Shown in pieces: positions 3,994 to 33,394 of a stretch of DNA of 33,530 bases. The stretch's first letter is position 1, and each line of letters starts with the position of its first letter. The translations under genes were made by a program, and so were the position numbers. The notes beneath the pieces were generated by a model. That model ran no database searches and was not told the origin of the DNA. It worked only from the letters and a program-made list of their open reading frames with translations. Source of the stretch: a virus; IMG/VR virus record IMGVR_UViG_3300048834_000377, positions 1 to 33,530 of that record. One strand, 5' to 3'.

Positions 3994-5754
3994 TTACAAG
4001 CCGGGTATGGTGATCGCCTGGTCGTTGCTCACCAGTTGGCGCAGCAACGACGCGACGGTGTCGAGTTTTTTGTTGGTGTCTTTCTGCTCGAATAGCGACT
4101 TACGCGGAACGTCCGCATCACGAGCCGCGCCGGGCGCCCCGGCCCCGGACGCCGCCAGGCTCTGCCTGGCACGGAGTTGCAGCTCCTCGTTGCTGCCGAC
4201 GAGGTTCAGCCCGGCGAGCTTCTGCTCGCCGAAGATGTCGTCGCGGAGCTTGGCTTGAAGTTTGTCGAACTGGCCCTGGTCGATCAGGCCCTGATCGAAG
4301 AAGCCCCGGATCTCGCCCAGCTCACGGTTGAACCGCTCAATCGGGGTCTCGATCGACTCAAGCAGACGGTCCACCTGTGACTGCACGCTCTTGGATACGC
4401 CCCCGGTGATGTCGGCCGCGATCTCGATCTCGCCGACGCCGTCGCCGATGCTGGCGGTGGCCGCCGCCGCCGCCTCGGCCGCGTTACGGATGCCGTCGAA
4501 GAATGCCATGACGCGATCACCGCTCGACGGCGCAACCAGGCCGTCGTTGATCGCGTCCTTAAGGTCTTTGATCTCCGCTTCGAGGTTCGCAGCGAACAGG
4601 TCGGCGAAGTCGGCCACGTCGGTGGCGACACCGCCGCCGAGCCACTCGGGAAGGCCGGATGCAAGCTCGGCCAGTTGGGCGATACCACCGGCGGCGACGC
4701 TCATGAACTTCAGGGCGCCCAGTCGCAGCAGGTCGTAACCAAAGACGGCCGCGTCGATGCTGTCCGCGACGAACGCGACGCCCATCGCGCCCACTTCCAT
4801 CGCCGCGACGATCTTATTGCCGGCGACGCCCGCGGAGTCACCCGCGAAACCCAGCCAGCGTGCAAGCTCGCCCAGGCCGTTAATTGAAAGATCGATCACG
4901 CCCTCAAGTACACCTTTAATCACCGGGATAGCCTCGGTGAAGTCCGCGATCAGGCCCTTGAGGTCGATGCGGTCGAACAGGTCGGCCGTGAGGTCACGCG
5001 CCAGCAGGCCGACGTTGTCACGCAGCGTGGAGACCAGGCCGGAAAGCGTTACGCTTTGCGCCGCCATCAGCCCGGCGAACTGCCCGCCCTCGGCGGTCAT
5101 ATCCACAAACGCCTGCTGCAGGTTGCTGAAGCCCACGCGGCCCTCGGACACCAGGCCCTTGACCTCGCTTTCCGCGACGCCGAACTGTTTGGCCAGCTCG
5201 GCGATTATCGGGATGCCCCGGCCGGTGAGCTGGTTGATGTCCTCGGCCATCAGCCGGCCCTGCACACGGGCCTTGCCGTACAGCTCGGCGATCTCGCTGA
5301 TCGGGGCACCGATGCCCGCGCTGATGTCACCAATCGCCCGCAGCTCGGGGATGACCTGGCCGGCGTCGGAACCGAAAGCGAGCAGCTTACGCGACGCCTC
5401 GGTAAGGCCCGGCATCTCAAACGGTGTGGAGGCGGCAAACTGGTTGAGCTCACCCAGCAGGTCCTTTGCCGCCTCCGTCGAGCCGAGCATCACGCCGAAC
5501 GCGACCTCGGCCTGCTCGGCCTCCGCCGCGAGCTTGCCGCCGAAGCCGATCGATGCGGTGATCGCGGCCAGGCCGATACCGATGCCGGCGATCGCGAGCG
5601 TGAACGGGTTGACGATCCGTCGCATGCGAGAGAAGACGCCGGAGCTGGCGCTTTCAAGCCCGCCCAGTTCACCGCGCACGTGACGGGTCGCGCTGTCAAG
5701 CGGCGCGGTGTCAAGCCCGATCGATCCCGTGATGGCGCCCGCGTTAAAACTCAT
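3994..5754 (-). CDS. Tail tape measure protein
   Basis: A 586-residue protein (start MSFNAGAITG chosen because its ATG overlaps the TGA of the chaperone gene and GAAAGAAG precedes it; a longer in-frame extension has no support). After a short lead there is a hydrophobic Gly/Ala/Ile segment (about 51-75) typical of tape measures. The conserved tape-measure N-terminal domain follows (about 80-270: VMLGSTEAAKDLL, ASTPFEMPGL, DINQLTGRGIPII, VSEGRVGFSNL), then a helical C-terminal half ending in a coiled-coil-like tail. This protein sets tail length and is threaded inside the tube. With roughly 0.15 nm per residue known for the family, a tail near 90 nm is expected. Confidence 0.93.
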   Translation of the reverse strand: MSFNAGAITGSIGLDTAPLDSATRHVRGELGGLESASSGVFSRMRRIVNPFTLAIAGIGIGLAAITASIGFGGKLAAEAEQAEVAFGVMLGSTEAAKDLLGELNQFAASTPFEMPGLTEASRKLLAFGSDAGQVIPELRAIGDISAGIGAPISEIAELYGKARVQGRLMAEDINQLTGRGIPIIAELAKQFGVAESEVKGLVSEGRVGFSNLQQAFVDMTAEGGQFAGLMAAQSVTLSGLVSTLRDNVGLLARDLTADLFDRIDLKGLIADFTEAIPVIKGVLEGVIDLSINGLGELARWLGFAGDSAGVAGNKIVAAMEVGAMGVAFVADSIDAAVFGYDLLRLGALKFMSVAAGGIAQLAELASGLPEWLGGGVATDVADFADLFAANLEAEIKDLKDAINDGLVAPSSGDRVMAFFDGIRNAAEAAAAATASIGDGVGEIEIAADITGGVSKSVQSQVDRLLESIETPIERFNRELGEIRGFFDQGLIDQGQFDKLQAKLRDDIFGEQKLAGLNLVGSNEELQLRARQSLAASGAGAPGAARDADVPRKSLFEQKDTNKKLDTVASLLRQLVSNDQAITIPGL

Positions 5755-22299: not shown

Positions 22300-22340
22300 G
22301 GATTGCTACCACGTCACGCCCCCCGGTGCGTAGCCGGGGG

Positions 22341-22484: not shown

Positions 22485-22889
22485 TTACACACCGCTCCTC
22501 CCATCTGATTCGGCAAGCTCGATCTGCCATTGCAGCGCAGCGATCACAACGTCGCGCTCAGCTTTTGGCAAAGGTCTTTCGTACTCACCGGCCCGGCAAT
22601 CCTCTTCGAGACACCGAAGAGCGGTCAGCGTCAATGCAATCGGTCTCCAATCACGGCAGCCCAAAAGAAGCTCACGCAACGACTGTGGCTCTTTGTCGGG
22701 CTCTTCGAGGACGATCTCGAGCGTTGTGCGATACGCACCTTTCGGAATCTGATTTTGTACCCATGACTCCGCCACCGTCGCGAGTGCAGCAACCAGCCGC
22801 TGCACCGCCTCTGGTATCAGCCAGTCTCGCACAAAACTCACATAGCTTGCCGGGTCGATCGATTCGTCGAGCATTTTTTCTTCGTTCAC
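22485..22889 (-). CDS. Orphan hypothetical protein on opposite strand
   Basis: A 134-residue acidic, helical protein from GTG 22,889 (AGGAG 8 nt upstream; a second ATG follows five codons later). The sequence (DWLIPEAVQRLVAALATVAESWVQ; LRELLLGCRDWRPIALTLTALRCLEEDCRAGEY) has normal protein composition, unlike the Arg/Ser-rich plus-strand frame over the same DNA. It is the only minus-strand gene within the rightward region and is flanked on both sides by structured non-coding DNA, like a moron. No family was recognised. Confidence 0.65.
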   Translation of the reverse strand: MNEEKMLDESIDPASYVSFVRDWLIPEAVQRLVAALATVAESWVQNQIPKGAYRTTLEIVLEEPDKEPQSLRELLLGCRDWRPIALTLTALRCLEEDCRAGEYERPLPKAERDVVIAALQWQIELAESDGRSGV

Positions 22890-22982
22890 TACGCGGTCTC
22901 CTTTCGTGGTTGAGAGGTGGACCGCATTGTACGGGCCGCTCGGGCAATAAGCCCCGGCGGACCCTTGAGGGCTAACGCCCCA

Positions 22983-23335
22983 CGATCCCCGGAAAGTGTC
23001 GGGATCGGCTCCGGCCGGTCCCGGCGCTTGATCACAGCGAGGCGGTGCGTAGCCGCCTCTAACGATACGGCCGGTCGGGCGTGACTAACCCGGTCGGCCC
23101 TTGACCTGCCGAAGACGACGCGAGTCAAAGGTGCCGTCTTCATCCTCCCCACCCCGCGCCGCCCGGAAACGGCGCGACGCGGGATTCGTAGCACGGGCCA
23201 CGGAAGGCCCGCCAGATCAGGGGGGCGAGCGGCAAAGGACTGCCGCCGCCCTGGTACGGGACCCAACGGCACGCCAACGGACGGCGTGCCCAACCCCCGG
23301 AGGTTAACACCCTTCGGGAGCGCACGGAGGCGAAA
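22983..23335 (+). ncRNA. Structured leader/RNA with ANGGA-bearing hairpin loops
   Basis: There is no credible gene here. Successive hairpins are: CGATCCC/GGGATCG (22,983-23,007); GAGGCGG/CCGCCTC with a TGCGTAG loop (23,039-23,059); GGCCGGTCGGG/CCCGGTCGGCC (23,069-23,099); CGCGCCG/CGGCGCG, loop CCCGGAAA (23,155-23,176); CGGGCC/GGCCCG, loop ACGGAA (23,194-23,211); an 11-bp stem with bulged A, loop AAGGAC (23,223-23,251); GGCACGCC/GGCGTGCC, loop AACGGAC (23,268-23,290). Then comes ACGGAGG as the ribosome site of the next gene. Three loops in a row present ANGGA, the CsrA/RsmA recognition form. Confidence 0.55.
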
Positions 23336-23337
23336 TC

Positions 23338-23859
23338 TTGGACGGTGTTTGCACCCAGGTACAAGACGAGCTGACTATGAGCGCTGAGGCCCTCTGGGGT
23401 ATGAATCACGAATCGGTCTGGAGCGTCAAGCAGACCGCGAGCCTGCTGCACCTGTCGCTCACCGGCGCGTATCGGTACTACGGCAAGCGGGAGCTGACTT
23501 ACTCGCACATCCGCCAGTTCGTGCATTACGCGCCGCCCGACGTGGCGATGCGATTGCTCAACGGCATCTTTGCCGGTTCGCGGATCAAGCCCATCTATAT
23601 CAATACCAAGATGGACTTCGACGGCGATGGCGACGTGGACACCGACGACGTGCTGGGCCACGCGATCGACGCGCTGGACAAACTGACCACGTACCTGCGC
23701 ACGGTGCAGGCGTCGGGCAAGCCGGACATGGAACTGCTCGGCGGGCTGATCTCGCGCGGTATCCAGAGCCTGGTCACGAGCGAGCGGTGCGCCCAGACGA
23801 TCGCGGACATGAACGTCAAACGCGGCGGCCGCCGCAAGGCAAAGGCGGTGAGGGTATGA
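23338..23859 (+). CDS. CII-like phage regulator with EF-hand/dockerin-type loop
   Basis: A 173-residue protein from TTG (GGAGG 7 nt upstream; an ATG 13 codons on lacks a site). The N-terminal half 'VWSVKQTASLLHLSLTGAYRYYGKRELTYSHIRQFV' looks like a helix-turn-helix of the CII/Cro kind. Residues 93-104 form a perfect calcium-type loop (Asp93, 95, 97, Gly98, Asp101, Asp104), followed by helix 'DVLGHAIDALDKLTTYL'. A basic tail (VKRGGRRKAKAVRV) ends it. It is first in the early operon, overlapping the next gene by ATGA. It probably controls early transcription, which is inference. Confidence 0.68.
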   Translation: MDGVCTQVQDELTMSAEALWGMNHESVWSVKQTASLLHLSLTGAYRYYGKRELTYSHIRQFVHYAPPDVAMRLLNGIFAGSRIKPIYINTKMDFDGDGDVDTDDVLGHAIDALDKLTTYLRTVQASGKPDMELLGGLISRGIQSLVTSERCAQTIADMNVKRGGRRKAKAVRV

Positions 23860-25455: not shown

Positions 25456-25498
25456 CCCGGAAGTTTTCACCACAGAGAGCCCAGAGGACGCAGAGGAG
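25456..25498 (+). repeat. Interspersed repeat, copy 1 (CCCGGAAGTTTTCACC ... AGAGGACGCAGAGG)
   Basis: Its 3' part supplies the AGAGGAG ribosome site of the next gene. Related copies are at 26,024-26,065 and 32,969-32,998. Confidence 0.8.
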
Positions 25499-26023: not shown

Positions 26024-26065
26024 CCCCGGAAGTTTTCACCGCCAAGACGCGAAGGACGCAGAGGC
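26024..26065 (+). repeat. Interspersed repeat, copy 2
   Basis: CCCCGGAAGTTTTCACC followed by a variable part and GGACGCAGAGG just before the ATG at 26,068. Confidence 0.8.
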
Positions 26066-26067
26066 AG

Positions 26068-26280
26068 ATGGTTTTGGTCAGCCCCACCCAACGGTACGTG
26101 TTCACGGCCTACGTCAAGTTTAGGCCGCAGAAGTTGTGGGTCGGCGTGAGCTGGTACCGGAGCTGGCACACACTTGAAGTCACCCTCTGTTTACTGCCCA
26201 CACTCCCGATCAAGATGACGCTGGTTGATCTTAAAGACCCGGACCCCGAGCCCCGAATCCCGAATTGCTACCGTCAATGA
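26068..26280 (+). CDS. Small hypothetical protein upstream of transposase
   Basis: A 70-residue aromatic-rich protein (MVLVSPTQRYVFTAYVKFRP start; WVGVSWYRSWHTLEV). The stop overlaps the transposase ATG (ATGA). AGAGG from the interspersed repeat lies 3 nt upstream. No homology was recognised. Confidence 0.5.
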   Translation: MVLVSPTQRYVFTAYVKFRPQKLWVGVSWYRSWHTLEVTLCLLPTLPIKMTLVDLKDPDPEPRIPNCYRQ

Positions 26281-28544
26281 TCGCCCTAGCCCAAACCATC
26301 CCGACCCACGCCCCCGGAACCGGACACGCCGCCGATGACGCATCGGACTGGCTGCCCGTCGCCGAGGCCGCGCGACGGATGGAAGTTACCGACCGCCACC
26401 TCCGTCGCCTTTGCGTCGACAAGTGGCATCGCGTCGGTTTGGCCAGGCAAGAGGGCGGGCAGTGGATCGTGCGTATCGACGCGGACCCGAAGCTGGACGA
26501 ATCACTGCCCAAGTCCGACCTGTTGATCCGTAGTGACTTCGCGGCGATGCCCAAGGAGCAGCAGACCGCCGCGATGCAGCGGGCCGAGTGCGTGCGCCGG
26601 TTCCGCACCCTGAAGGCCGAGCGTAAGGACGCGGTCTCCATATGGCTGCCTGCCGTGCTGGCTTTGCTCAACAAGGATTACCCCAACTTCAAAGGCAAGG
26701 TGACGCGGTCCACCCTCTACCGATGGGACAAGCGGGCGGGCCACCCGATCGACGTGGCCGAGCTGGTGGACTGGCGCGGCCACGCCAACCGCGAACGCGG
26801 CGGCATGGGCTGCGCCGAGGCGTGGGCGTTTTTCGCCGAGCAGTACCTCGACGGCAACGAGCCGGCGTTGGCCGACTGCTGGCGGCGCACGCGGATGTGG
26901 GCCGATGAGCGCGGCTTCGACTGGTGCAGCGTGCATAGCTGCAAGCGCCAGCTCGATAAACGCATCCCCAGGGAGCAGCAGGTGCGCCACCGCCAGCCCG
27001 CCGTCTGGCGCAGCAAGCTCGCCACCTTTATCGAGCAGCACGCCGAACGTCACGCCGCCGGGGATTGCTGGGTATCCGACCACCGGCCGCTGGACGTGAT
27101 CTGCGTCTATCAGGGCAAACGATACCGGCCCGTGATTACGCTGTGGCACGACTGGCGGACGCGCAAGGTGGTCGGGTGGGAGCTGTCGGTCAAGCCCAAC
27201 GGCGACACCATCCTGGCCGCATTTGCTAAAGCCGTGCGCGACCCGTCGAACCTCGGACCGCCGCTGATGGCTTGGATGGACAACGGCAAGGACTTTGACA
27301 GCACCCCGCTGCACGGCCGGTCGAAGAAGGAACGCCAGCAGGCCAAACGCTGGCGAGACAAGGCGCGCGTCGATGAGACCTGGTTCGGCGGCGTGTTCGG
27401 ATCGCTGGGCATCGAGGCGCACTTCTCGCTGGCGCACAACCCACAGGGCAAGGCGCGGTGCGAGCGGTGGTTCGCCACGATGGCCAGTCAGCACGATAAG
27501 TTGTGGGCGACCTACACCGGTAAGGACACGACGCGCAAGCCCGAGGGCCTGGCCGGCCGGATCGGTGAGAAGTCGCGCGTGATCCCCCGCTTTGAGCAGG
27601 TGCGTGACCATGTCGCCGACTTCGTTGCTCATTACAACGCCAACGCTGATCACGCGATGGAGGACCTGCGCGACCCGCAGCATCAACTGAAGCTGTCGCC
27701 GAACGAGGCGTATGCCGCCTGGACCACCCCGCGCAAGATGGCGGACCCGACGGCGCTTGACCTGTGCCTGATGCCGCACACCAAGCCCGTGAAGGTGGGC
27801 AGGCAGGGCGTGCGCGTGCAGTTGCCCGGCTGCCCCGCCCGTTATTACGGCCAGTACGAAGCGGCCCTGCGTCCCTACAAAGGCACCAAGCGCAAGGTGT
27901 ACGTGGCCTACGATCCGGCCGACACCCGGCGCGTGCAGGTGCGCGACGAGAAGATCGGTCTTATCTGTATCGCCGCGCTCAACAGTAACACGGGCGTCTA
28001 CGGATCGCCGCAGAGCCGCGACGCGCTCAAGGCGGCGATGCACGAGAAGGCGGAATACAACCGGGGCTTGAACCTGATGCGCAAGCATCAACGCACGGCC
28101 TACCTCAATAACGATTACCTGGTGGCGCAGAAGGCGGCGGAACTCGAAGCGGCGCAGAACGTCGAGTCACGGATCGGTCCCGACCCCGACCGTCCGATGC
28201 GGTTGGTTCAAACGCCGTTCGACGGGCAATCGAAAGACGTGCAGCGGCAGACATTCAAACAGGCCGCCGGCGCGGAAACCTCCGACCGATCCAGCGCGAT
28301 GGTCGACGTGACCAAGCTGCTGGCCGACCGGCCGCGCGTCGTGGTGGAGCGCAGCGATAGCGAGCGGATCGCCGACCCGCTGGAACTGATCGGCCGCGCC
28401 CGCGCCGGGCGCGACGAACCAGTGGGCCGGGACGAGCAGCCGATCGACGTGATGAGTCTGCTCGTGGGCGGGGCGGCGAAGTTGCCCGGGGGCGGGAACT
28501 CCGGGAGCGACAGTTCCGGGGGCGGGGGCGGGGGTGCATCATGA
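26277..28544 (+). CDS. Mu-type DDE transposase (MuA-like)
   Basis: A 755-residue protein; the ATG overlaps the previous stop. N-terminal helix-turn-helix 'WLPVAEAARRMEVTDRHLRRLC' (about 25-47), a second DNA-binding region with 'RSTLYRWDKRAGHP', then the RNase H core with catalytic Asp268 ('SDHRPLDV'), Asp335 ('AWMDNGKDF') and Glu396 ('GKARCERWF'). Positions nearly equal MuA Asp269, Asp336 and Glu392. A beta-barrel Mu_transpos_C domain (KPVKVGRQGVRVQLPG) follows, then a low-complexity Gly/Ser tail. It integrates and replicates the genome by strand transfer with the MuB-like partner encoded next, overlapping by ATGA. Confidence 0.95.
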   Translation: MIALAQTIPTHAPGTGHAADDASDWLPVAEAARRMEVTDRHLRRLCVDKWHRVGLARQEGGQWIVRIDADPKLDESLPKSDLLIRSDFAAMPKEQQTAAMQRAECVRRFRTLKAERKDAVSIWLPAVLALLNKDYPNFKGKVTRSTLYRWDKRAGHPIDVAELVDWRGHANRERGGMGCAEAWAFFAEQYLDGNEPALADCWRRTRMWADERGFDWCSVHSCKRQLDKRIPREQQVRHRQPAVWRSKLATFIEQHAERHAAGDCWVSDHRPLDVICVYQGKRYRPVITLWHDWRTRKVVGWELSVKPNGDTILAAFAKAVRDPSNLGPPLMAWMDNGKDFDSTPLHGRSKKERQQAKRWRDKARVDETWFGGVFGSLGIEAHFSLAHNPQGKARCERWFATMASQHDKLWATYTGKDTTRKPEGLAGRIGEKSRVIPRFEQVRDHVADFVAHYNANADHAMEDLRDPQHQLKLSPNEAYAAWTTPRKMADPTALDLCLMPHTKPVKVGRQGVRVQLPGCPARYYGQYEAALRPYKGTKRKVYVAYDPADTRRVQVRDEKIGLICIAALNSNTGVYGSPQSRDALKAAMHEKAEYNRGLNLMRKHQRTAYLNNDYLVAQKAAELEAAQNVESRIGPDPDRPMRLVQTPFDGQSKDVQRQTFKQAAGAETSDRSSAMVDVTKLLADRPRVVVERSDSERIADPLELIGRARAGRDEPVGRDEQPIDVMSLLVGGAAKLPGGGNSGSDSSGGGGGGAS

Positions 28545-29659
28545 CGGATCACGATGCCAGCAAAATCTTGAACGACTACAGCAGGGATGCACGCCAGTTG
28601 CGTGCGGCAAGGATGCTACCCGTGGGCCTACAACTATCCGACCTGGATCATCTAAAAGTACGCGAACTCTGCAACGAGCACATCGTCCGGTATGGGATAG
28701 CCCAGAAGACCATCGCCGACCAGATCGGCATGAGCCCAGGCGTCGTTTCTGAATGGTGCCGTGGCGTCTATGGCGGCGACATGGACAAGCTCACCCGGCG
28801 CATGAACGCCTGGCTTGAGAGCGACGCGCGGATGCGTCACGCGAACATTGATATTCCGTACGTTACCACCTGGCTCGCCGAAGCGATGACGAGCATGATC
28901 AACCTGGCGTGCGACCGGCAGTCGATGCTGGCGATCGTCGCCCCCTCGGGCACCGGCAAGACGATGGTCATCAAGGCATCGGCCGACCGGCGGCGCGGCT
29001 TCTGCGTCTACTGCGACGAGCACACCACCACGAAAAACTTTCTTGAGGCGCTTAGCCGGGCCGTGCTGCCAGAGCCGAAAGCCCGCAGTATCCCCGCGAT
29101 GCGTGACGAGTTGATCAACAAACTGCGCGGCACGCGCCGGCCGGTCCATGTCGACGAAGCCCACCTGCTTAGAAAGCCCGCGTTCGGTGTCGTCCGTTCG
29201 ATCTTCGACCAGACCGGGGTGCCGTTCATCTTTGTGGGCACGCAGAAGATCATCGAACGGATCGACGACAGCGCCGGCGGCGACGGCCAGTTCTACCGGC
29301 GGTGCCGGATGTGGAACGCCATCGAGCACATCATCAATCTGGACAACCCCGGTTCAACCAATGCCGGCCGGCCGTTGTTTTCGCTTCAGGAAGTGCAGGA
29401 GTTCCTCTCGCACCAGGATGTCAAGCTCACCAGCGACAGCCTGGAGATGCTCTGGGGCCTCGCCTGTATCCCGGGCAAGGGCAGCCTCGGCATCGTGCGC
29501 GAATTGGTCGGCACCTGCTACTGCACCTTCGGACCGGGCGCGGAGATCGGCATGAAACAGTTGGTCGCCATGATGCAGGCCCTGTTCGGCGGCGCGGAGA
29601 CCGTGATCATGACCGGCATGGCATCAGATTACGTACACGCGATGCAGCGCACCGCCTGA
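28541..29659 (+). CDS. MuB-like AAA+ ATPase
   Basis: A 372-residue protein. The N-terminal helix-turn-helix (about 48-75: 'IAQKTIADQIGMSPGVVSEW') matches the additional DNA-binding domain of MuB. The ATPase core has Walker A 'APSGTGKT' (134-141), Walker B 'VHVDEAH' (Asp205, Glu206) and sensor-like 'PFIFVGTQ'. The C-terminal helical part follows. It binds target DNA, delivers it to the transposase and gives target immunity. Its start overlaps the transposase stop, as in Mu. Confidence 0.93.
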   Translation: MTDHDASKILNDYSRDARQLRAARMLPVGLQLSDLDHLKVRELCNEHIVRYGIAQKTIADQIGMSPGVVSEWCRGVYGGDMDKLTRRMNAWLESDARMRHANIDIPYVTTWLAEAMTSMINLACDRQSMLAIVAPSGTGKTMVIKASADRRRGFCVYCDEHTTTKNFLEALSRAVLPEPKARSIPAMRDELINKLRGTRRPVHVDEAHLLRKPAFGVVRSIFDQTGVPFIFVGTQKIIERIDDSAGGDGQFYRRCRMWNAIEHIINLDNPGSTNAGRPLFSLQEVQEFLSHQDVKLTSDSLEMLWGLACIPGKGSLGIVRELVGTCYCTFGPGAEIGMKQLVAMMQALFGGAETVIMTGMASDYVHAMQRTA

Positions 29660-29721: not shown

Positions 29722-30081
29722 ATGGGATTCGACATCACCGAATTTATGAAGGGCCTGGAAGGCGAAGGCAGACGCCGCGTGATCGGTGCCGGTGTCGCGG
29801 CGGTCGATCAGTTCGCCAACCACGTTGTCGGCAAGGCGCAGAGGCTGGCGCCCGTAGAGACCGGCGCCCTGAAGGCGTCGGGCGTTGCGGAGAAGGCTGA
29901 GTTCACAGGTAAGGACATCACCGCCGTGATCGGCTTCAACACCGATTACGCCGCCGCCGTGCATGAGCGTCTTGATGCGCATCACGACGAGGGCCAGGCC
30001 AAGTATCTGGAAACCGCGATGCGGACCGAGGCGCCCAAGCTGCACCCGTTCGCCGTGAAGGAGATGAAGAAGGCGTTATGA
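29722..30081 (+). CDS. HK97 gp10-like tail-completion protein
   Basis: A 119-residue protein with the gp10-like pattern: an N-terminal helix (ITEFMKGLEGEGRRRVIGAGVAAVDQFANHVVGKAQRLAPVETGALKAS), then 'AVIGFNTDYAAAVHE' and a C-terminal helix 'KYLETAMRTEAPKLHPFAVKEM'. The 'AP..tG.Lk.S' and 'yA..vHe' motifs are diagnostic. AAAGGA precedes the ATG. Such proteins join head and tail and normally sit with connector genes on the same strand as the capsid, yet here it is in the transposition operon. Confidence 0.85.
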   Translation: MGFDITEFMKGLEGEGRRRVIGAGVAAVDQFANHVVGKAQRLAPVETGALKASGVAEKAEFTGKDITAVIGFNTDYAAAVHERLDAHHDEGQAKYLETAMRTEAPKLHPFAVKEMKKAL

Positions 30082-31097
30082 CACGCGACCCGGACAAACC
30101 TGATCCCCGCCTCGTCGCCGAGCTGGTCGCCCGGTATGAGGCGTCGGCCGCGCGCCTGCGTGACCGCATCACCGACCCGCCCGGCAAGACGGACCGCGCC
30201 CGGGTTTGGAACCAGGCCCGTGCCTCGCAGGTGCTGGCCCAGGTCGATGCCGAGATCGCGGATCTCCGTGGCATGGCCGCTGATTGGACCGGGACGGCCC
30301 TGGAGGAATCGATGCAGCGCGGCATCGCCGCCGCCGACCGCCAGGCCGAAGAGGCCGGCGTCAGGGACGAGGGCTCGCCGCTGCGTGGTTCGTTTTCGAT
30401 CGTCGATCGCGGCGCCGTCGAAGTGCTCGCCCGCGACACGGTCAGCGACCTGGTCAAGGCCGCCGATTCGATGAAGGCCCACGCCGGCCACGTGCTGCGC
30501 CGCATGGCCGCGACCGGTGTGAGCAACGCCGAGGTCAACACGATCCTCACCGGCGGCGTGATCGAGGGCCGGCCCCGCGACACGATCCGGGAGCTGCGTG
30601 AGCTGCTGGTCAAGGTCCACGGCAAACAGGTGACGATCACCGACAAGAACGGCGATCCGATCACCTTCGACGCCGGCTATTACGCCAGGCTGGTTGCCGT
30701 CACGAAGACGCGGGAGGCGACGAGCAAGGCGCGTCACGCGCGGCTCGCCGATCGCGGTATGGACCTGGTCGTCGTTGTCGGCCGTGTCAGCGACAACTTC
30801 TGCACGGCGTACCTGGACAAGGTTTTCTCGATCTCCGGCTCACACCCCAAGTACCCGCCGCTGGCGTCGCTGCCCGGCGGCGGCCCGCCGTTCCACGTGC
30901 AGTGCAGCAAGAGCACGGCGCCGTTCATAGAGGACCTGGCCGACCCCGAGGAGATCGAGGTAGGCGAGCCGGACCCGGACACGGCGCTACTGCTGAACGT
31001 GCGTGACACCAGCGAGCTGCAGCGCCGCTTCAAGTCGCTGCAGGGCAGACAGCAGGCCGAGGGCCGGCGGCAGAAGCTGGCGGGGGGTGTGGCCTGA
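30078..31097 (+). CDS. MuF-like head morphogenesis protein
   Basis: A 339-residue protein. The N-terminal helical part is followed by 'TVSDLVKAADSMKAHAGHVLRRMAATGVS', then the MuF-type motif 'VTKTREATSKARHARLADRG...VVGRVSDNFCTAYLDKVFSISG' with Cys242, then 'PPFHVQCSKSTAPFI' with His273/Cys276. The family's 'R.s..C..l.gkv...' and 'P..H..Crs...P' order is kept. These are minor capsid proteins binding the portal vertex. The start overlaps the gp10-like stop by ATGA. Displaced from its usual portal-adjacent site. Confidence 0.82.
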   Translation: MTRDPDKPDPRLVAELVARYEASAARLRDRITDPPGKTDRARVWNQARASQVLAQVDAEIADLRGMAADWTGTALEESMQRGIAAADRQAEEAGVRDEGSPLRGSFSIVDRGAVEVLARDTVSDLVKAADSMKAHAGHVLRRMAATGVSNAEVNTILTGGVIEGRPRDTIRELRELLVKVHGKQVTITDKNGDPITFDAGYYARLVAVTKTREATSKARHARLADRGMDLVVVVGRVSDNFCTAYLDKVFSISGSHPKYPPLASLPGGGPPFHVQCSKSTAPFIEDLADPEEIEVGEPDPDTALLLNVRDTSELQRRFKSLQGRQQAEGRRQKLAGGVA

Positions 31098-31622: not shown

Positions 31623-32957
31623 ATGAAACGCATTCATCGATACGACATCAAAGAGCTTTTGATGAATATTCTAAACACGGGCTTGCTCACGTTGTTTCTG
31701 ATCGTGTGGGCGGTCGTCATGGGCGCGGTGTGCATCGCCCAGGCGGAGCCTGCAACCATCCCGATCACGGGCACCGCAGACGTGTCGTCGATCCAGCAGC
31801 AGATCGATGAACTGCGCGGGCAGCAGGAAGCGAACACGACGGCGATCGGCGAGCTGCAGAAGAAAGTTGAAGGCAACGCGGGCGGCGGGGGCAACTCGGA
31901 TACATCGGATGAGACGGATACCGTGGGCGACAATTCCGGGGGGAAGGAGACGGATCTCTGGATCAACGTGTCGCACCAGCGCTACACGCCGGTGATCGAA
32001 TACAGGGACGGCGCGTATGTGATCACCGACCTGCGCTTCGTCGAGCTTATGGGCAAGTGGTCGGGCATACGCTACCTGAACTGGACGGGCCAACTTTACA
32101 AAGACCGCAACTGGACCTGGTCGAACCGCGTCAGAGAAACGGACGCCGACCTTTGGGACTCTACCGGCGTGCCGCTGGAGGCGATCATCGCCGTCGCCAA
32201 CGCAACGCACACGCACGTCTGGTGGTGCGCCCCGCAGCAGGCGGACCTTGACTATATGCGGCGGGCGGGCGACCTGTTTGCGCGTACGCTCGATCCCGAC
32301 CTAAACATGGTGGTCGAGATCGGCAACGAGGTCTGGCAGTCGGATCGCGGCTGGCGGTATGACGACCTGTCGGTCGGGCCTGATGGCAAGCGGAACTTCG
32401 GCCGGCGGATGCAGCTCTACGCGCAGGACTCGGCCGCGAAGTTCAGGGCGTTCATCGAAGGTCCCCCGGAAGGTGTGGGCTTCCCGGCCGATCGGCTGAC
32501 CCGTGTGATCGGCGGGCAGCTACATAATATAGGCGTACTCAAGAGCAACGCGCTGAAGCACATCGATCCGGCCGACTACGACGCGATCAGTTGCAGCGGC
32601 TACTTCGGCAGCTCGCCCGGCGATTACGTCGATGGGTCCGGCGGGCTGAAGGCATCGCTGTCCGGCCTGCGTGCGCATGCGGCGCTGGCCGAGCAGTACG
32701 GCAAGCAACTGCTGATCTATGAGATCAACCAGCACATAGACCGCGGCACGAGCGATATGGCCTTCGTGGATACCGACCCGGTGATCGACGGCGTGAGAAC
32801 CATGCTCGCCGCCGCGCGTGACGAGGGCGCTAAGACGATCACCGTCTACTCCGGCGTCGGCCGCGCCTACCCCAACGCGCCCTTCCCGATCTACACCGAC
32901 GACTACCAGCCGCGCCGCATCGTCACCGAACTCGGCTGGCCTACCCTCGGAAATTGA
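31623..32957 (+). CDS. Exported clan GH-A-like glycoside hydrolase
   Basis: A 444-residue protein. A signal or signal-anchor (residues about 14-41, ending AQA) is followed by a short coiled coil (55-83), a Gly/Ser/Asp linker and a TIM-barrel-like domain. Candidate acid/base Glu236 lies in 'VVEIGNEVW', the Asn-Glu pair of clan GH-A, and candidate nucleophile Glu367 in 'LLIYEINQH'. Trp/Tyr-rich barrel strands ([16 protein letters not shown]) support sugar binding. GGAGG lies 5 nt before ATG. It may cut a host-surface polysaccharide or alter the lysogen's surface. Neither lysis nor entry can be assigned. Confidence 0.72.
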
Positions 32958-32968
32958 ACGGATGCCCA

Positions 32969-32998
32969 CCCCGGAACTTTCACCGTAGAGGACGCATT
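32969..32998 (+). repeat. Interspersed repeat, copy 3 (shortened)
   Basis: ACCCCGGAACTTTCACC then TAGAGGACGCA, a shorter form of the copies at 25,456 and 26,024; it again supplies AGAGGA to the next gene. Confidence 0.7.
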
Positions 32999-33001
32999 GC
33001 T

Positions 33002-33394
33002 ATGAGCACAGAGCAGATCGAAGCCAGCGTGACCGGGTTGCTCGCTAAAACGCTGGACCGCGAGACCGGCGCGTTTGACCGCACCACGCACCTGTACGAC
33101 GAGCTGCTCATGGACAGCCTGGACAGCGTCGAGCTGGTGATGGCTTTAGAGGACGAACACCGCATCACCATCCCCGACGAAGACGCCGACCGCTGGCGCA
33201 CCGTCGGCGACGTGATTGATTACATCGCCGGCGTCACGGCCGCAAACGATGACCCGCGCAGGCAGTGCATCGACTGCGGCGACCTGGCTCATCCGTGCTG
33301 GGGGCCGAACGGTGAAGGGCCTTGGTGTCCCCGGTGTTACAGCTCCGAACGGGCAAAGAACGGGCGCGACTATCGCGATGTGCCAGAAGATTGA
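33002..33394 (+). CDS. Acyl carrier protein fused to a zinc-ribbon tail
   Basis: A 130-residue protein from ATG 33,002. Residues 1-78 read as an acyl carrier protein: '[45 protein letters not shown]', with the phosphopantetheine serine in DSL (Ser39), the helix II 'ELVMALEDE' face and the final 'TVGDVIDYI' helix. Residues 89-112 add Cys89xxCys92...Cys99...Cys109xxCys112, a zinc ribbon absent from ordinary ACPs. AGAGGA lies upstream, from the interspersed repeat. No fatty-acid or polyketide enzymes are nearby. It may recruit a host acyl-ACP enzyme or carry an acyl group for virion or lipid modification. Confidence 0.85.

Follow-up and report, generated by a model that had tools for sequence, protein, structure and literature searches.

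IMG/VR record IMGVR_UViG_3300048834_000377, a virus contig of 33.5 kb, derives from an uncultured Mu-like phage; all of its 33,530 nucleotides were analyzed here (hereafter the window). On this contig the genes for terminase, portal and tape measure point leftward, and a rightward run of early genes contains MuA and MuB. A 448-nt gap separates a leftward gene (22485–22889) from the first rightward gene (23338–23859), and an array of hairpins with GGA in their loops sits inside this gap. The features of the locus are as follows.

22890 to 23154, plus strand: upstream part of the intergenic region, with dense strong hairpins and no ANGGA loop
23155 to 23176, plus strand: hairpin 1, CGCGCCG-CCCGGAAA-CGGCGCG, with GGA in an 8-nt loop that lacks the A of ANGGA
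23194 to 23211, plus strand: hairpin 2, CGGGCC-ACGGAA-GGCCCG, with an exact ANGGAN hexaloop
23223 to 23251, plus strand: hairpin 3, GGGCG(A)GCGGCA-AAGGAC-TGCCGC-CGCCC, with an ANGGAN hexaloop as drawn
23268 to 23290, plus strand: hairpin 4, GGCACGCC-AACGGAC-GGCGTGCC, with a 7-nt loop containing ACGGA
23296 to 23318, plus strand: hairpin 5, CCCGGAGG-TTAACAC-CCTTCGGG, with GGA in the stem
23324 to 23330, plus strand: ribosome-binding site ACGGAGG, which also reads as an ANGGA word, 7 nt before the TTG start at 23338
23338 to 23859, plus strand: gene that opens the rightward early operon, encoding 173 aa from a TTG start, with gene-typical codon-position GC
26265 to 28544, plus strand: MuA-type transposase, a member of the rightward early gene run
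28541 to 29659, plus strand: MuB-type AAA transposition protein

The leader is ~70% GC. The first-pass annotation of this DNA had reported the loops ACGGAA, AAGGAC and AACGGAC on stems of 6–11 bp; the loops and their coordinates match ours, ACGGAA and AAGGAC are, as it had held, exact ANGGAN hexaloops, and the ribosome site ACGGAGG that it had assigned to the next gene was found at 23324–23330. Hairpin 1, absent from that annotation, is a fourth GGA-loop hairpin with a weaker loop. The core of hairpin 3 (GCGGCA-AAGGAC-TGCCGC) occupies 23229–23246, and its stem reaches 11 bp overall with one bulged A. Hairpin 5 competes with a rival 4-bp hairpin at 23292 that presents CCCGGA in a hexaloop. GGA stands at positions 23202, 23237, 23279 and 23326, with spacings of 37, 35 and 42 nt. 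Because an ANGGA word is common at the ribosome sites of this phage genome (12 of the 36 gene starts examined within the window), its presence ahead of the first early gene was left out of the evidence.

The abundance of GGA loops was compared with chance by counting hairpins with perfect stems of at least 6 bp and loops of 5–8 nt. Within 23150–23337, all four such hairpins carry GGA in the loop. Dinucleotide shuffles of these 188 nt gave a mean of 0.06 GGA-loop hairpins and a maximum of 2 in 5000 shuffles, against the 4 observed, and clusters in shuffles of the whole window never exceeded 2. Across the plus strand of the window, GGA occurs in 6 of 53 such loops, and 4 of those 6 lie in 23150–23337. 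GGA makes up 4.8% of positions locally. In a stricter permutation, the stems were held fixed and only the remaining letters, with their high local GGA content, were permuted; GGA then fell in all four loops in 10 of 50,000 draws, and three ANGGA loops arose in 2 of 50,000. When hairpins were required to have A-N-GGA in the loop, a stem of at least 6 bp and at most one G-U pair, three were found in all when both strands of the 33.5 kb were counted, every one of them in the leader. The earlier claim that the placement of GGA in loops goes beyond composition is borne out by both the shuffles and the fixed-stem permutation. The high-affinity CsrA/RsmE site has been described as an ANGGAX hexaloop set directly on a stem (PMC4005645), and, judged by its letters, the leader is a statistically strong match to that site.

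RNAfold on the 181-nt leader gave a z-score of -4.1, and the ~450 nt of the intergenic region fold at -247 kcal/mol. Hairpins 2 and 4 are predicted with pair probabilities of at least 0.93 and about 1, respectively. Hairpin 3 adopts the perfect hexaloop in only ~12% of the predicted ensemble; its rivals are a shifted form and a form having the 7-nt loop CAAAGGA, the latter lying 0.3 kcal/mol above the optimum and still exposing GGA, and the second G of hairpin 3 is unpaired roughly half the time. For hairpin 1, a form with a GAAA tetraloop is preferred by 6.7 kcal/mol, so that on the folding model this hairpin probably refolds and is the weakest candidate site. On the basis of the predicted folding, our working set comprises two sites that are clean and one that is partial, together with the ribosome site. 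The low share of the hairpin 3 hexaloop and the refolding of hairpin 1 count against reading the region as a CsrA leader.

The upstream part of the gap (22890–23154) is a candidate for inclusion in one transcript with the GGA-loop leader. Strong hairpins without ANGGA loops are found there at 23000–23023 and 23039–23059, together with an 11-bp one near 23068–23100. The loop segment GGTGCGTAGCC is common to two hairpins with different outer stems, at 22325–22335 and 23043–23053, one of which is preceded by a small CopG-like gene. The leftward gene has its ribosome site, AAAGGAG on the minus strand, inside a predicted hairpin (22889–22926) and may therefore also be structure-controlled. Elsewhere in the window, a 23-nt near-repeat starting with CCCGGAAGTTTTCACC lies ahead of two early genes, at 25456–25478 and 26025–26047, and is followed by CACAGAG- or GCCAAGACG-type tracts. 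Two genes downstream of MuB (29722–31097), one HK97-gp10-like and the other for a minor head protein, are on the early strand, unlike the other structural genes, which run leftward; in L002, the related gene comes after the portal gene. The right end of the window holds a probable moron, a gene resembling those for acyl carrier protein (32954–33394).

Searches of Pfam and PHROG with the protein of the first early gene returned no match, and its predicted structure, with a pLDDT of 36, was unusable. We found no DNA similarity to the leader among the phage records, and single queries with the early gene, MuA, MuB, the leftward neighbor or another early gene recovered only a 99.97% identical contig. 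As this sole close relative is nearly identical, no covariation is available for the leader stems. Useful relatives were reached through alignments of terminases and then of MuA, and a MuA alignment of the window with a 30% relative found the distant Mu-like phages L035 and L036. Both encode homologs of the first early gene, at 4135–4668 and 4167–4685, respectively. These proteins of 172–177 aa lie 2.6–2.8 kb upstream of MuA, a position like that in the window, and BLASTP of the first early protein against them gave E = 2e-12 and 1e-16 as single comparisons; the L035 protein is 21% identical to that of the window. The family shares the motif D-x-(D/N)-x-DG-x-V-D, which resembles a calcium loop (DxDGDGDVDxxD). 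It is an orphan family of Mu-like phages, and we tentatively regard the first early gene, with its DxDGDGDVDxxD motif, as a regulator. Since they encode this homolog, L035 and L036 provide a fair test of the leader. G003 (the 30% MuA relative) and L037 provide none, because CI- or XRE-type regulators lie upstream of their early genes and no early-gene homolog was detected in either. A scan of relatives for tRNA genes found none.

The L035 leader shows no evident similarity to that of the window and cannot be aligned with it. It contains two hairpins with the loop motif.

L035, 4062 to 4081: hairpin CTCTCA-GCCATGGA-TGAGAG, with an ANGGA loop, beginning 73 nt before the ATG
L035, 4088 to 4105: hairpin CCGGCG-AAGGAC-CGCTGG, with a perfect ANGGAN hexaloop, beginning 47 nt before the ATG

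The word AAGGATG precedes the ATG at 4135. Two ANGGA-loop hairpins appeared in none of 20,000 shuffles of this leader, a single case that was chosen for its position before the homologous gene and not for its loops. A background scan covered 1.35 Mb of strand from phages that are related and for the most part matched in GC; ANGGA-loop hairpins occurred there at 0.04 per kb, and the L035 pair was the sole pair within 100 nt of each other. The AAGGAC hexaloop is predicted with a probability of 0.98–1.0; the GCCATGGA hairpin is disfavored (~0.04), and its GGA stays single-stranded. No ANGGA loop was found in the L036 leader of the homologous gene, where a 7-bp hairpin (4122–4141) has the hexaloop ACGGTC. 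At 4024–4077 the same leader contains a hairpin that resembles a terminator, with five consecutive T, and is a possible attenuator; no plus-strand gene was recognized directly ahead of it. The ANGGA-loop leader is thus present in two of the three family members, which supports a shared function and does not settle it. Loss of GGA from loops whose stems are kept, named in the first-pass annotation as a sign against its proposal, is partly seen, in that the L036 stem carries ACGGTC and L035 keeps its loops.

CsrA ranks among the chief post-transcriptional regulators in bacteria. It has been reported across many phyla, including the Planctomycetes (PMC10729762, PMC4682653). For the host of this phage, a planctomycete is no more than a guess, made from composition and the style of the repeats. 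In leaders under CsrA control, a high-affinity site upstream is often accompanied by a second site at the ribosome site (PMC4005645). Because the leader fits this pattern of ANGGAX hexaloops and ribosome-site GGA, we favor a cis-acting function, and put at about an even chance the reading, drawn from sequence features, that 23155–23330 is a structured 5′ leader of the early operon bearing a CsrA/RsmA-type array. The leader would be transcribed ahead of the first early gene in a host that encodes CsrA; CsrA dimers may dock on those ANGGA loops whose GGA stands at 23202, 23237 and 23279, and bridge towards the ACGGAGG ribosome site. Docked CsrA would then repress or time translation of the first early gene, and early expression would follow the Csr state of the host. 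Besides the folding of hairpins 1 and 3, this reading has against it that no promoter was recognized, that the GCCATGGA hairpin of L035 is disfavored and that L036 has the same gene with no ANGGA loop. No csrA gene (PF02599) was found in the phage records examined. Extended to a family of Mu-like phages, the proposal that a leader read by host CsrA ties the early (transposition) operon to host physiology, with the lysis-lysogeny or transposition decision sensing the host carbon/Csr state and no phage-coded sensor involved, is possible but doubtful.

The array could instead act in trans, the leader or a piece processed from it serving as an early sponge that titrates host CsrA in the manner of CsrB/RsmZ. 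Several GGA loops on strong stems within ~130 nt would suit such an RNA. As a control, a hairpin scan of 20 kb of E. coli around csrB picked out csrB, with seven GGA loops, as the densest cluster once 4-bp stems were allowed, indicating that the scan recognizes a true Csr RNA, and the phage cluster is of the same order. However, only three or four good sites are present, L035 has two, and the array is joined to a ribosome site and an open reading frame, with no terminator-like site between array and gene in a simple pattern scan. Rfam Csr/Rsm sRNA families gave no match to the leader, either at the gathering score or with E-values of up to 5, whereas csrB itself was detected at 380 bits. A 26.4-bit match to BcKCsr2 (RF02883) on the minus strand at 23235–23358 was rejected, being below the gathering score of 40 and on the strand opposite to the GGA loops. 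With four sites at most and no terminator, the sponge is less likely, and we consider it quite improbable. The first-pass annotation had linked the loops to CsrA either as a leader or as a sequestering RNA; that link is partly supported, having the match to the known site and the recurrence in L035 in its favor and the ACGGTC loop of L036 against it. The cis leader is favored over the sponge.

That the hairpins are generic or DNA-level structures, such as operator palindromes or insulation between the divergent operons, and the GGA in their loops meaningless, appears unlikely to us. Hairpins fill the whole 448-nt gap and mostly lack GGA in its upstream part, the triplet is locally frequent at the level given above, and L036 is without the loops, all of which would suit this explanation. 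However, the loops agree while the stems differ in sequence, which is the opposite of what an operator array would show; moreover, loop placement is significant with the stems fixed and recurs in L035. Another RNA-binding protein might also read the loops, for example the phage's own early regulator, acting by feedback, or an anti-termination complex. The orphan gene is preceded by a GGA-loop leader both in the window and in L035, and put-type anti-terminators also use tandem leader hairpins, both of which count in favor of such a protein. Yet the element that the two leaders have in common is exactly the CsrA word, and no RNA-binding domain was recognized in the first early gene, whose structure model was of no use here; we regard this alternative as improbable.

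If the cis-acting CsrA leader is correct, a temperate phage would read the metabolic state of its host directly, through CsrA sites built into its early operon and kept in a diverged relative. Such a CsrA route into a phage early operon would be easily testable. Our searches of the open-licence literature, mostly at the level of titles and abstracts, turned up no phage leader with CsrA sites. Phages do encode CsrA homologs, such as BcepIL02 gp49 and Itty13 gp22, and CsrA is reported to affect prophage activation (PMC7366521). The leader described here would connect phages with the Csr system in a further way, differing in that BcepIL02 and Itty13 carry the CsrA protein, whereas the Mu-like phage has candidate binding sites and no csrA gene was found. 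Compared with CsrB (RF00018, clan CL00106) and RsmZ, it shares tandem GGA-loop hairpins detectable by the same scan, but has fewer sites, no terminator and no Rfam match, is continuous with a gene and, relative to csrB, has longer stems. The phage leader also resembles CsrA/RsmA-repressed mRNA leaders such as hcnA of Pseudomonas: its hairpin loops hold several GGA sites at intervals of 35–42 nt, two of these loops are ANGGAX hexaloops on a stem, and an ANGGA word stands at the ribosome site. The glgC and pgaA leaders of E. coli are likewise CsrA-repressed and contain several GGA sites. Unlike these leaders, the array belongs to a phage early operon and offers candidate sites, on stems of 6–11 bp in a leader of ~70% GC.
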